Shown here: piece by piece, positions 13,027 to 17,916 of the stretch
Layout: every line of letters begins with the position of its first letter
Numbering within the stretch: position 1 is the stretch's first letter
Assembly (NCBI RefSeq): GCF_002210285.1
Contig: NZ_MWQE01000010.1
Location: forward strand, 62,001 to 126,000
DNA: 64,000 nt
Origin: Fibrobacter sp. UWR2
Lineage (GTDB): Bacteria > Fibrobacterota > Fibrobacteria > Fibrobacterales > Fibrobacteraceae
Direction: 5' to 3'
Translations under genes and position numbers: made by a program
Notes under the pieces: model-generated
Database searches by the model: none
What the model was told of the DNA's origin: nothing
What the model saw: only the letters and a program-made list of their open reading frames with translations

Positions 13027-15414
13027 CTATCTGGTAATATTGATCGGTCGTGCCTCGTGGTAACTACCGGTCGAAACCTTCACGATGTAGGTGCCTGCGG
13101 GCATCTCGCTCATGTCGAAGGTTTGCACGTGCCCGCCTGCGTTCTGGATTCCCGTCACCTTCTGGTCGATCAGCGCGCCGAATCCGGTAAACAGGCTCAC
13201 CTTCACGTTGTCGTTTTGCGGGAGCGTGTATCGAACTTGAAGTTGCCCGCGACGGAACGCGACATTCATATGCGAGGGCGTGCCGTTCAAGCCGTACATC
13301 AGTGCGGTAGTCGACTCGCCATTGCCCTGCTCGTTCGTGAGCGTGATCGTCACCTTGAAGAGTACCGCCTTCCCGTTGTACTGGAGGCCCTGCGTAAACT
13401 TGTATGTATCACCGTTGTTCACGCGGTTCGGGTAGTGCCCGATGGAGAGCGTCCCCTTCGCGATATCCGCTTCGCTAAACACGTAGGCGTTTTCGCCCCA
13501 TTCCACCACGTTGCCCGTCTTGCCGAACCAGTGGCCGGGTGCGTTCGCGGTAGATTCGGTTACGTTGTTCCCGCTGGGTTCCTGCGCGAAGAAGGTTGCC
13601 TGCGTGAGTGTATTAGCGGTGAGTCCGAGCTTGCTTGCAACTTCGGCGACGTCGAATGTTGCGGTAACCGGAGCGTAGTTGTCGTCGATGGGGAGAGTCA
13701 CCTTGATGTCGTATGTCGCTGCGGTGGTTGCTGGCACAACGCTGCTGCTCGAGCTCGTGGGCTTCTCGCTGCTCGAAGAAACCGGGTTCACACTGCTGGA
13801 ACTCTGCGCGACACTGCTGCTCGATGCAACGGGGGCATCGCCAATTTCAGGCCACTTGTAATCCAGTTTGAAATCGTTGTAGTATTTCGTATTCGCGTCG
13901 CCTGCGCCGTTGATTCCTTCCTCGGGCTTGAGGCGGTAATCGTAGTGGTAGGTGCGCATGTCGGGGTTTTTCGAGTAATTGTAGTCGGTGTTCACGACGA
14001 TGGCGAAGGCCATCTTGCTGCCGCCCGTGCTGCTCGGGGTCTTCGCGATTTTAAGGATGGCGGTCTCGTTGCCCTTCACGGGTGTGCTGTACACCGGCGT
14101 GCCGTCCGTGGCGCGGTAGGCAAGCACCAGTCGCATGTTTTCGTTCGTGGAGTGCGAGCCGTTCGGATAGAGTGTCATGCTGATTTGCGTCGCTCCGTCC
14201 TTGAGCTTGAGCGGGATTACGTTAGAGCCCGACCATCCCGGAGTCAAGTCCTGGTTCGGCACCCAGTCGCCGTTGCTAACGGTGACGCTCTGGTACGGAG
14301 TCATTTTCCAGGTGTAGCTGTATTTGCCGTTGTCCCAGTAGTCCTGTTCCCAATACGTATTGCTTCCAAAATTCTGGTTCAGCAGGTTCTTGATTTCGTT
14401 GGACCACTTTTTCATGTCGAGCATCGCGAGCCTAGCGCGGAATTCCGTAATGAGCCTGCGCACGCCCTCGTCACCGAGGCCGATGTCGAGCCCGTAAGTT
14501 TCGAGCAGGTAGGTCGTCTTGCCGTAGGCGTGGCCGTACACCCAACGCACGGACCCCGTACCGAGCCATGTGCCCATGAACGTGGGGAAAATGTTGCTGT
14601 ACTGTGCACCGCCCAGGAGTGAACGCTGGTTCTTGCCGGTAACGCCCTGAGCGCCGGGGCCACCGAAGGTACCGTCGATGAGCCAGCCCGAGTAACATTC
14701 GATGGGCATGAAGGGCGCAATCACCGTCGCCGCGTTCAGGAATCCCATGCCGCTATAGACGCCTTCGCGGTGGCTGAACATGTCCTGCTGAATCCAGGTG
14801 TTGCCCGCTTCCTGGAACCAGTGCGCCTCCTTTGCGCCAGGGTAGCCGTTCGTCATCGAGTGGATGCCCTCGTGAATCATCGCGTCCATCTGCGCCACGC
14901 GATCGCGGTAGGGGCAGCTCGTGTTGAAACTGTACAGCGGGTAGAACGATGCCGCGACGGCCGTGTAGCCCGCAACCCATGTCTGCCATCCGCCGGTGGT
15001 GTCGGTCTTTGCGCCGCCCGCGCACGTGCCCGAGCCGTAGTAGTACACGGCGCTGTACTGGCCGTCCTGTGCCTGTGCGTCAGGTGCCCAGCCCATCTCG
15101 TTATAGAGGTACTCGAAGTCGGTATCGTATTTCTTGAGGATGCTGTCGATAGTCACGTCGGTAATGCGGCTGTCGCGATCCTTGCCCCAGTAGAAGGCCC
15201 ACCACTTGCCGGCCTTTTTGCCGGTCACGCCCGAACAGTTGTTGTTGAACTTGGTGGGCGGCTTGATTTCACCCAGGTTCGACTTGGTGTCGTAATCGAG
15301 GTCAGAGCGGTAGGCGGGCCATGTGTAGGCGTCCCCTTCCGCAGCGGAGGCCATGACCCCCATCCCTGCCGCGAGCGCTGCCGCGGCTATCCATCCCATA
15401 CACTTTTTTTGCAT
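13027..15414 (-). CDS. Secreted putative zinc metallopeptidase (HEGIH), DUF6055-like
   Basis: A signal peptide (about 1-24) leads into a domain with HEGIH at residues 181-185 and EAGN beginning at Glu202, the HExxH plus downstream Glu spacing of gluzincin-like zinc peptidases; peptidase activity is therefore likely but the substrate is unknown. I believe the family corresponds to DUF6055, from memory. A beta-sandwich-like region (about 390-540), a Ser-rich linker (SSSSVAQSSSS type, about 545-580), an Ig-like domain (about 585-715) and a sorting-like C-terminus ending EMPAGTYIVKVSTGS follow. GGAGTGTG precedes the ATG. It is divergent from the TIGR02147 regulator across a 214-base region with three copies of one motif, so joint control is possible. 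Confidence 0.75.
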   Translation of the reverse strand: MQKKCMGWIAAAALAAGMGVMASAAEGDAYTWPAYRSDLDYDTKSNLGEIKPPTKFNNNCSGVTGKKAGKWWAFYWGKDRDSRITDVTIDSILKKYDTDFEYLYNEMGWAPDAQAQDGQYSAVYYYGSGTCAGGAKTDTTGGWQTWVAGYTAVAASFYPLYSFNTSCPYRDRVAQMDAMIHEGIHSMTNGYPGAKEAHWFQEAGNTWIQQDMFSHREGVYSGMGFLNAATVIAPFMPIECYSGWLIDGTFGGPGAQGVTGKNQRSLLGGAQYSNIFPTFMGTWLGTGSVRWVYGHAYGKTTYLLETYGLDIGLGDEGVRRLITEFRARLAMLDMKKWSNEIKNLLNQNFGSNTYWEQDYWDNGKYSYTWKMTPYQSVTVSNGDWVPNQDLTPGWSGSNVIPLKLKDGATQISMTLYPNGSHSTNENMRLVLAYRATDGTPVYSTPVKGNETAILKIAKTPSSTGGSKMAFAIVVNTDYNYSKNPDMRTYHYDYRLKPEEGINGAGDANTKYYNDFKLDYKWPEIGDAPVASSSSVAQSSSSVNPVSSSSEKPTSSSSSVVPATTAATYDIKVTLPIDDNYAPVTATFDVAEVASKLGLTANTLTQATFFAQEPSGNNVTESTANAPGHWFGKTGNVVEWGENAYVFSEADIAKGTLSIGHYPNRVNNGDTYKFTQGLQYNGKAVLFKVTITLTNEQGNGESTTALMYGLNGTPSHMNVAFRRGQLQVRYTLPQNDNVKVSLFTGFGALIDQKVTGIQNAGGHVQTFDMSEMPAGTYIVKVSTGSYHEARPINITR

Positions 15415-15510: not shown

Positions 15511-15615
15511 TGTGTAAAAAATTTTCTGGGACCATTTTGTGTAAGAATTTCTATAATCAAAACAGATTTTCAAGACAATTCTGCAAAACATATTGCTTTT
15601 TGTGTAAAAATTTTA
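15511..15615. promoter_or_regulatory. Three TGTGTAARAA-type repeats in the divergent control region
   Basis: Near-identical copies start at 15511 (TGTGTAAAAAATTTT), 15538 (TGTGTAAGAATTT) and 15601 (TGTGTAAAAATTTT), all in the same orientation. The third occupies the spacer between the predicted -35 and -10 boxes of the TIGR02147 gene, a position where bound protein would block transcription. Autoregulation by the adjacent regulator is an inference. Confidence 0.5.
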
Positions 15616-15621
15616 TATCTT
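15593..15621 (+). promoter_or_regulatory. Predicted promoter of the TIGR02147 regulator gene
   Basis: TTGCTT (15593-15598), 17-base spacer, TATCTT (15616-15621). The ATG at 15629 is only seven bases past the -10 box and no Shine-Dalgarno sequence is present, so the mRNA may be leaderless. Confidence 0.55.
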
Positions 15622-15628
15622 AAAAGAC

Positions 15629-16474
15629 ATGAGTATCGCCCTGGAACATCTGTTTGACTACGATGACTTCCGCAAGTTCATGCAGGACTATTTCGAAGAG
15701 CAGAAGAAAATGCGCTCCGTGTTTTCGCATCGCTTTTTTGCGGCGAAGGCGGGTTTCAGCAGTTCGTCGTACTGCCTGAACGTAATCCGCGGGCGCTTCA
15801 ATCTCACGCCCAAGTCTATCGAGAAAATTTCGAAGGCGATGGATTTTGAGCCCCTGCAGAAGGCATACTTCGAGGCGCTGGTGCAGTACAACCAGGCGCA
15901 GCAGGTGGACGAGCGCGACCAGGCGTGGGAACAGATTCTGCAGATCCGCAGGCAGATTGAGTTCACGCACGTGACGACGCGCGAGCAGGCCTACTTTAGC
16001 AAGTGGTACTATCCGGTGATACGCGAACTTGCGGTGGAATCGGACTGGAACGGCGATTTTCGCGTGCTGGCCCGCTCGCTTACCCCGCAGATAACGACGG
16101 AGGAGGCCCGCGAGGCGGTGAAGAACCTGCTGGAATGGGGCCTGTTGAAAAAGGATGGCGAACGTTATGAGCGCGTATCGCAGATGCTCGATGCCGCGGA
16201 AATTCCGCCAATTGCCCTCCGGAAAATCCGCCGCGAGTATATACAGCATGCGATTGGTGCAGTGGAGGCCATGCCGAAAAACGAACGCTTTGCCGCCTTC
16301 ACGACGCTTGCGATGAGCGAGAAATCCTATAATTATGCGGTAGAGGTATTGGAAGAGGCCCGCAAGAAGATTATTGCGCGGGCAGCTAACGACCTGGATG
16401 TGGAGCGCGTTTACGAGATGATGCTCGTGGCATTCCCGATGAGCAAGAAAGTCGGAACGGAGGTTGAAAGATGA
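15629..16474 (+). CDS. TIGR02147 family putative transcriptional regulator
   Basis: Belongs to a paralogous family expanded in Fibrobacter (TIGR02147, DUF4423-containing) with a helix-turn-helix-like N-terminus. FDYDDFRKFMQDYFEEQK opens the protein, then FAAKAGFSSSSYCLNVIRG (about 38-56) resembles a lambda-repressor-type HTH, and an alpha-helical regulatory part (about 100-281) includes ARSLTPQITTEEAREAVKNL. The usual family length is about 270-300 residues, and this one is 281. The stop overlaps the start of the downstream LamG lipoprotein gene (ATGA), so the two are translated as a pair. The role in gene control is family knowledge and weakly tested; the target is inferred to include its own operon. 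Confidence 0.85.
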   Translation: MSIALEHLFDYDDFRKFMQDYFEEQKKMRSVFSHRFFAAKAGFSSSSYCLNVIRGRFNLTPKSIEKISKAMDFEPLQKAYFEALVQYNQAQQVDERDQAWEQILQIRRQIEFTHVTTREQAYFSKWYYPVIRELAVESDWNGDFRVLARSLTPQITTEEAREAVKNLLEWGLLKKDGERYERVSQMLDAAEIPPIALRKIRREYIQHAIGAVEAMPKNERFAAFTTLAMSEKSYNYAVEVLEEARKKIIARAANDLDVERVYEMMLVAFPMSKKVGTEVER

Positions 16475-17916
16475 AACGTTTGATTGTTTATCTAAAACAG
16501 CCTGCCATTTGCCGCGCGTGGGCGCTCGCTTTTGCCGCATCCCTTGCGTTTTTTGCCTGCTCGAACGGCGACGATGTTGCGGGCGGCGTTACCGATATCG
16601 GGAACTCTATTGCTCGAGAACCGGATACGACAAAGATTGCAGGGACTGTTGTCGACATGCAGGGCAACAGGATGCCTGCCGCGCGCCTCACGCTGTATTG
16701 GGATAACGGTTATGCAATTGAGGATTCGCTGGAAGCTGTTGCCGATTCGAATGCTCAGTTCGAATTCAGGGTCGCAAGCACTGACATGCATGGCTATCTG
16801 CAAAACGGGCGGACGACCGTCATCCAGTATGCGGATTCTGCAAGGGGCGTGGTAAATGCGTTTGCGGGCGTTTATCTGTATGCACGGTCGGGTTCCCTTT
16901 CGGGAATCTCGCTTCCGCCGAGTGGAAAGGCTACCGAGGTCCGTATCGGGTCGCGCAAGGCCCTGCGCGGGAGCATGTCCGGCGTGGCTTCGGGCAAGGT
17001 TCACATCGGCGGAACGAATCTTAGCGCCGACATACAGGAAGATGGCTCGTTCAGTTTCGATTCCATCCCGCCGGGAATGCAGGAAGAATTAATTTATTCA
17101 GAAAGCGATTCCGTGCTGGGCTATATTCCGTTTACCATACAAGATGAAGGCGATACCGTTGTCCTCCCGCAACTTGAAAACTACGACGGTTTCCTCTGGA
17201 ACCTTGACCTGCCTATGCTTGCGGATGCGTACGGGTTTAGCTCTTACCATACCGATTATGTTGTTAGGTTCGATACCAGCCGCAGTGCGGTAGATATCAA
17301 TATGGCTGGTGACGAGCAGGTGTTCGGCCATAACGGCAAACTGGCGGACAGCGTGAATTACGTGGATGGCGTAAAGGGCAAGGCCGTGCTCCTGGAACCG
17401 GGCCAGTATATCGATCTCGATACCCTCAACCCGACCGGTGGCGACTTTACGCTTTCGCTCTGGACAAAATGGAACGGCCCCAACGGTGAGCACCAGGTGC
17501 TGTTCTGCCAGCGCGCTTACTGGAGCGATTCTACGTCAAGGTTCCAGTGGCACTACGAGGTAAATAGCGGTTCGTTTGCCGTAATGAAGAGCATGCCGGG
17601 CAGGCCCGAGGCGGTATTCTTCGGGGATTCGACCAGCGTGCCTGTTGGCGAGTGGGCGATGCTCACGCTCGTGTCCAGGGACCACAAGGTAAGCATGTAC
17701 GTGAACGGCAAACCCGTAGCGATTGCGGGTAGCGACGGTACTGAATTTGCAGGCGAGTTCGTGCCGAACGAACTGACCCGCAGCGTCCCCTTCCGCATCG
17801 GCGGCGACGAAATCGAGACCGAAACCTGGAACGGGCCGCTCGATGAAATCCGCATTGAATCGATTGCCCACAGCCCCGAGTGGATAAAGATCCGGTACGA
17901 CAATCTGAAGCCATAA
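16471..17916 (+). CDS. LamG-domain surface lipoprotein coupled to the TIGR02147 regulator
   Basis: A lipoprotein signal ends with AFFAC (Cys about 33). A carboxypeptidase-regulatory-like or Ig-like fold (about 55-220, KIAGTVVDMQGNRMPAARLTL) is followed by a concanavalin/LamG domain (about 300-475) with GDFTLSLWTKW, GEWAMLTLVSRDHKVSMYVNG and GPLDEIRIES, a fold that often binds carbohydrate. GGAGG seven bases before the ATG lies inside the regulator gene and the start overlaps its stop, indicating translational coupling. A function in sensing or binding polysaccharide at the surface is an inference from the fold and partner. A weak terminator hairpin follows. Confidence 0.8.
   Translation: MKRLIVYLKQPAICRAWALAFAASLAFFACSNGDDVAGGVTDIGNSIAREPDTTKIAGTVVDMQGNRMPAARLTLYWDNGYAIEDSLEAVADSNAQFEFRVASTDMHGYLQNGRTTVIQYADSARGVVNAFAGVYLYARSGSLSGISLPPSGKATEVRIGSRKALRGSMSGVASGKVHIGGTNLSADIQEDGSFSFDSIPPGMQEELIYSESDSVLGYIPFTIQDEGDTVVLPQLENYDGFLWNLDLPMLADAYGFSSYHTDYVVRFDTSRSAVDINMAGDEQVFGHNGKLADSVNYVDGVKGKAVLLEPGQYIDLDTLNPTGGDFTLSLWTKWNGPNGEHQVLFCQRAYWSDSTSRFQWHYEVNSGSFAVMKSMPGRPEAVFFGDSTSVPVGEWAMLTLVSRDHKVSMYVNGKPVAIAGSDGTEFAGEFVPNELTRSVPFRIGGDEIETETWNGPLDEIRIESIAHSPEWIKIRYDNLKP

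Follow-up and report, generated by a model that had tools for sequence, protein, structure and literature searches.

Conserved repeats upstream of a TIGR02147 regulator gene in Fibrobacter as candidate operators of a putatively self-regulated regulator-lipoprotein unit

The regulator-lipoprotein locus

The window, a 64,000-nucleotide stretch of the Fibrobacter sp. UWR2 genome, contains a regulator gene followed by a lipoprotein gene and preceded by short repeats and a promoter-like region (Table 1). The encoded regulator matched the TIGR02147 profile with 216.2 bits (cut-off 50) and the DUF4423 profile PF14394 with 82.1 bits (cut-off 30).

Table 1. Positions of the genes and sequence elements at the locus, numbered from the first letter of the window
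Feature	Position	Strand	Remarks
Divergent gene (metallopeptidase of the original prediction)	13027-15414		Present upstream
Half-site copy 1, TGTGTAAAAA	15511-15520	+	Candidate operator; the close orthologues L033-L035 have a counterpart at around -121
Half-site copy 2, TGTGTAAGAA	15538-15547	+	Candidate operator; 63 bp upstream of copy 3
-35-like TTGCTT	15593-15598	+	TTG(A/C)TT kept in many orthologues
Half-site copy 3, TGTGTAAAAA	15601-15610	+	Candidate operator; within the promoter spacer; first base at -28 relative to the ATG, a position shared by most orthologues
-10-like TATCTT	15616-15621	+	Ends 7 nt before the ATG; a -10-like hexamer recurs in many orthologues
TIGR02147 (Fsuc_second)/DUF4423 regulator, 281 aa	15629-16474	+	Assigned by profile matches
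Predicted helix-turn-helix, codons 34-53 (helices 34-41 and 48-53)	15728-15787	+	Candidate specificity residues 35, 46 and 51
Lipoprotein gene, LamG_3 domain	16471-17916	+	ATGA overlap with the regulator gene; predicted to be co-transcribed; conserved partner

The sequence of the window protein gave no significant match to helix-turn-helix families; among the family members, 13 of 90 matched HTH_31 and 10 of 90 matched HTH_3, with E values up to 1. In the AlphaFold model (mean pLDDT 89.6), residue 35 is located in the first helix of the predicted motif, residues 49 and 51 in the second, and residue 46 just before the latter. The best structural match to residues 12-94 was a HigA antitoxin (VIA Z 8.6, a value that is not decisive; 74 residues, 2.2 A), while residues 115-191 weakly resembled ArsR/MarR-like winged-helix chains (Z about 6). 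A Foldseek search with the model returned no match at E below 0.001. The protein is predicted from this model to carry an N-terminal Xre/HigA-like helix-turn-helix.

Repeats in the promoter region

Upstream of the regulator gene, three genuine copies of TGTGTAARAA were confirmed at 15511, 15538 and 15601, all in the same orientation as claimed in the original prediction. The third copy was said to fill exactly the interval between the -35 and -10 elements; it does lie inside the spacer, but it covers only 10 of the 17 bp between TTGCTT and TATCTT. This promoter matches the consensus at 8 of 12 positions, and a consensus promoter scan did not pick it up.

Within its own 3.28-Mb genome the motif occurs in 11 exact copies, of which the three at this locus form the sole cluster. 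A genome-wide search with a 15-bp core and at most two mismatches revealed no other cluster and no regulon, only 40 scattered matches. The best of these outside the locus (L203) is intergenic, with about 360 bp separating it from the long ORF that follows. By the local sequence alone, finding three copies is only modestly unlikely rather than extreme: in 7 of 300 dinucleotide shuffles of the intergenic region, some 10-mer appeared three times with at most one mismatch (p about 0.02). These shuffles are what speaks for chance repetition in an AT-rich intergenic region, and we regard conservation, rather than the local count, as the decisive evidence on the motif.

The original prediction named a lack of repeats upstream of orthologues as one of its possible refutations; such repeats were found. 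At least two motif copies were present in 31 of 34 promoters, a set comprising the window gene and its orthologues, compared with 0 of 135 promoters of other paralogues. Two other genera are included, and their proteins are 80% (L223) and 67% (L226) identical to the nearest reference protein. Since the repeats are retained in orthologues despite differing flanks and neighbouring genes, chance is an extremely improbable explanation, excluded in practice by this conservation.

In the orthologues, the last copy mostly starts 27-28 bp before the start codon, and the last two copies are mostly spaced 31, 63 or 92 bp apart, with exceptions of 65-97 bp in L152, L169, L223 and L226. The prevailing spacings are close to three, six and nine helical turns, so the sites tend toward one face of the DNA. 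Comparison of the neighbourhoods of 30 orthologous loci identified the lipoprotein gene in all 30 and the metallopeptidase gene in 18. The motif and the lipoprotein gene are kept at the 12 loci that have no metallopeptidase gene nearby, which ties the motif to the unit of regulator and lipoprotein; no support was found for the proposal that it also controls the divergent metallopeptidase gene.

Several neighbouring cases were observed. Two co-paralogues of the window gene (L153 and L168, about 63-65% identical) carry the helix KTSSYCLNV instead of SSSSYCLNV, and their promoters have no GTGTAAA repeats, providing a natural case of possible operator change. At eight loci (L038, L040, L042, L045, L050-L052 and L059) the regulator shares 86-90% identity with the window protein, and its partner lipoprotein only 32-35%; the pairing is retained there while the lipoprotein diverges or is exchanged. 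In seven genomes (G001, G004, G007, G042, G045, G046 and G071), one group of paralogues aligns to the window protein with a single internal TGA. These places are read as open frames by the family search, and the TGA is possibly an alignment or end effect.

Putative operator layout across TIGR02147 paralogues

Upstream regions were compared for 139 TIGR02147 genes, drawn from five genomes of the genus. Related regulators were found to share one operator word and distant regulators to use another, with the same layout recurring. Usually, two half-sites face each other around about 5 bp, and 70-73 bp downstream comes a third, directly ahead of the -35 element. Examples are TATGCAAC-GGAGT-GTTGCATA followed by TTTTGTTGCATAAAAC at L021, ATGAAACA-GGG-TGTTTCAT followed by TGTTTCAT at L010, and TATGATAC-GGAGC-GTATCATA followed by TGTATCAT at L145. 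The suggestion that similar repeats would occur upstream of other paralogues was thus borne out in the form of equivalent repeats of different sequence. The window clade is, judging by its promoters, a variant of this layout, with direct repeats and the last copy shifted into the promoter spacer.

Direct repeats at 70-74 bp were about 8-fold enriched over matches between non-orthologous promoters (31 vs 3.9 promoter-offset cells), and within-promoter matches ranked above cross-promoter matches (Kolmogorov-Smirnov p 8e-11). Self-repeats beyond the 99% shuffle level were present in 37 of the 139 promoters, with 1.4 expected, and the 70-74 bp spacing was absent from 22 other upstream regions of the window. 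When the search was unanchored, about a quarter of 30 promoters from the window's own genome stood out against shuffles; such a search is too weak alone, and orthologues and cross-promoter controls were therefore needed.

The operator words are subgroup-specific and sometimes shared, as in the case of GTATCAT, which several regulators of one genome have. The inverted repeat of L021 was found only at its own locus, its one near match (two mismatches) being the L010 operator. In a distant class (G159, 30 loci), seven promoters ranked in the top 5% for self-repeats and no common spacing was detected; beyond the TIGR02147 family the layout therefore cannot be regarded as established. A divergent clade comprising L002, L063, L064, L065 and L067, with the helix SSG(L/F)YLDL, contains repeated GTGTTC words; GTGT is common to these words and to the motif of the window clade.

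Covariation between operator bases and regulator residues

For 31 promoters, the operator word was called blind to the protein and 241 alignment columns were ranked for each base. Residues are given in L021 numbering, in which 30, 41, 44 and 46 correspond to residues 35, 46, 49 and 51 of the window protein. The top column for base 3 was residue 41, with an adjusted mutual information of 0.70 against 0.34 for the runner-up; residues 46 and 44 led for base 4 (0.79 and 0.76), and residue 30 for base 1 (1.00, with only two A against 29 G). All of these columns are in or beside predicted helices 2 and 3. Base 5 formed a negative case, as the recognition helix was not its best predictor among the 241 columns.

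Stepwise changes were observed within one group, in which the residues at 41, 42 and 46 pair with operator words as PNL with GTATAAT, PNV with GTAGTAT, PSV with GTAGCAT and SSV with GTTGCAT. The association of proline 41 with A at base 3 gave a Fisher p of 4e-4 after protein clusters were collapsed at 60% identity. In a first hold-out of four genomes, the core-type promoters fitted the rules; the exceptions were two members of the divergent clade with the SSG(L/F)YLDL helix, which use GTGT. A second hold-out of eight genomes was evaluated with rules fixed beforehand, the residue-30 rule having been added after the column ranking. The residue-30 rule held in 17/17 cases, with G strongly predominating at base 1, the residue-41 rule in 17/18 and the residue-46 rule in 14/14. 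Two or three calls came from divergent helices for which the register of the operator word is doubtful, and one or more of these entered the count as agreement; many of the hold-out proteins were 70-90% identical to training proteins, with a minority at 52-70%.

That the half-site covaries with the predicted helix-turn-helix speaks for binding of each regulator to its own promoter, with the caveat that operator words and proteins share a phylogeny. The covariation suggests that each subgroup has its own operator word, readable from a few amino acids of the regulator. Together with the conservation in orthologues and the repeats of the paralogues, this makes it very likely, as originally predicted, that the repeats in the window are operator half-sites for the product of the adjacent TIGR02147 gene; physical binding of the regulator to them is highly probable.

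Alternatively, the motif might serve another DNA-binding protein of more global action, or be an element of the core promoter in this lineage, as the overlap of copy 3 with the promoter and the AT-rich region might indicate. We consider this very unlikely, given that the other paralogue promoters do not carry two copies and have words of their own, that those words track recognition-helix residues, and that the motif is rare in the genome.

Predicted start sites and DNA shape

A -10-like hexamer whose end precedes the start codon by 4-10 nt, in most cases by 6-7 nt, was identified in 74 of 139 TIGR02147 genes; the same placement was found at 20 of 278 background positions and in 5 of 22 other genes. 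The transcripts of the family are probably leaderless on this basis. Given where the -10-like TATCTT of the window ends relative to the ATG, the regulator-lipoprotein mRNA is likewise likely to lack a leader.

The spacers of the 31 core promoters contain A-tracts that recur at 10-bp intervals (z 11.4 at lag 10 and 9.4 at lag 20). Other intergenic regions also show a weak 10-bp periodicity (z 3.1), so only the strength of the phasing in the core group, with z values of 9.5 to 11.4, is notable. This suggests that curved DNA lies between the two operator parts of the core promoters. In the window promoter taken alone, A-tract phasing was absent.

Proposed mode of regulation

Our overall reading, which we hold to be quite probable, is that the half-sites are bound by the TIGR02147 product of the next gene in a local negative autoregulation of the regulator-lipoprotein unit. 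The bound regulator would occupy copy 3 between the -35 and -10 elements and block the polymerase, and further regulator, bound at copies 1 and 2 along the same face of the helix, could help to stabilise this occupancy. The promoter held down in this way would be the source of the probably leaderless mRNA, and repression could be lifted by a signal sensed through the DUF4423 part. Cooperation between the copies is moderately probable. The direct-repeat layout of the window differs from the inverted-repeat layout of most paralogues, a point that counts against this explanation.

Copy 3 had been described as a repressor site. Its place between the -35 and -10 elements was verified, and it is from this position that we infer repression, which we consider reasonably likely at the window promoter. 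The opposite sign, with the regulator binding its sites as an activator of its own operon, is unlikely: the promoter-proximal half-site of the core group begins about 50 bp ahead of the start codon and immediately upstream of the -35 element, which is an activator-like place, and the -35 and -10 elements of the window clade are weak by consensus, but a protein bound to copy 3 inside the spacer should hinder the polymerase, and the core promoters already possess good -35 and -10 elements.

Relation to known autoregulators

HigA proteins bind operators in their own promoters, and the C proteins of restriction-modification systems use repeated operator sites at their own promoter. The window regulator may work like either of them. 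The HigA-type antitoxin repressors have the Xre fold and provided the best structural match described above; the small Xre-fold controller proteins C.AhdI and C.Esp1396I were also among the structural matches. In contrast to HigA, the window regulator is paired with a lipoprotein gene instead of an adjacent toxin gene, and it contains an extra DUF4423 region weakly resembling winged-helix folds. Unlike in the C-protein systems, its sites are spread over about 100 bp and the regulator has an extra C-terminal domain. Neither a HigB toxin gene nor restriction-modification genes are adjacent, the neighbours in the window being the LamG lipoprotein and a DUF4859 protein. The locus has none of the defining neighbours of the two systems and is therefore not filed with either.

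The literature searched, which covered few subscription journals, contained no paper on TIGR02147 and no DNA site, ligand or regulatory role for it, in agreement with the earlier statement that no DNA site has been described for the family. DUF4423 appeared in one incidental mention in a Bdellovibrio proteome, and nothing on point was found on Fibrobacter promoters, regulators or operators. The predicted operator layout and the testable specificity code would be novel, and Xre-like autoregulation is known.

Family size, lipoprotein partners and significance

TIGR02147 is among the largest paralogous families of the phylum. It was present in 156 of the 167 genomes searched, with 31 copies in the window's own genome and as many as 55 matches in other genomes. 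At 57 of the 59 loci examined (from L001-L030 and L061-L090), the TIGR02147 gene is followed within 200 bp by the opening of an ORF, and nearly all of these ORFs read as lipoproteins. A strict lipobox pattern was detected in 39 of them, and several others start inside the signal peptide. The partner domains among those tested included CBM_4_9, Fib_succ_major, and LamG_3 with CarboxypepD_reg.

For the family as a whole, we give about even weight to a model of many separate autoregulatory circuits per genome. Each subgroup would have its own operator at leaderless promoters, in which DNA curved by helically phased A-tracts connects a distal inverted repeat to the promoter half-site; the word would be readable from two or three residues of the recognition helix together with one where helix 2 begins. 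Linking every member's predicted operator to named residues makes the binding of a family without assigned function testable. The natural stepwise swaps of residues and bases are also good data on how specificity changes after duplication. The conserved pairing of regulator and lipoprotein, with carbohydrate-binding and Fib_succ_major domains among the partners, points to switchable surface lipoproteins in these fibre-degrading bacteria.

In many of the partner lipoproteins, the lipid-anchored cysteine is followed by a common short motif resembling VAGGxxExxNxIA. In G042 (contig C3:145090-160937), five TIGR02147 genes were found on one strand within 16 kb, likely a site of recent duplication.
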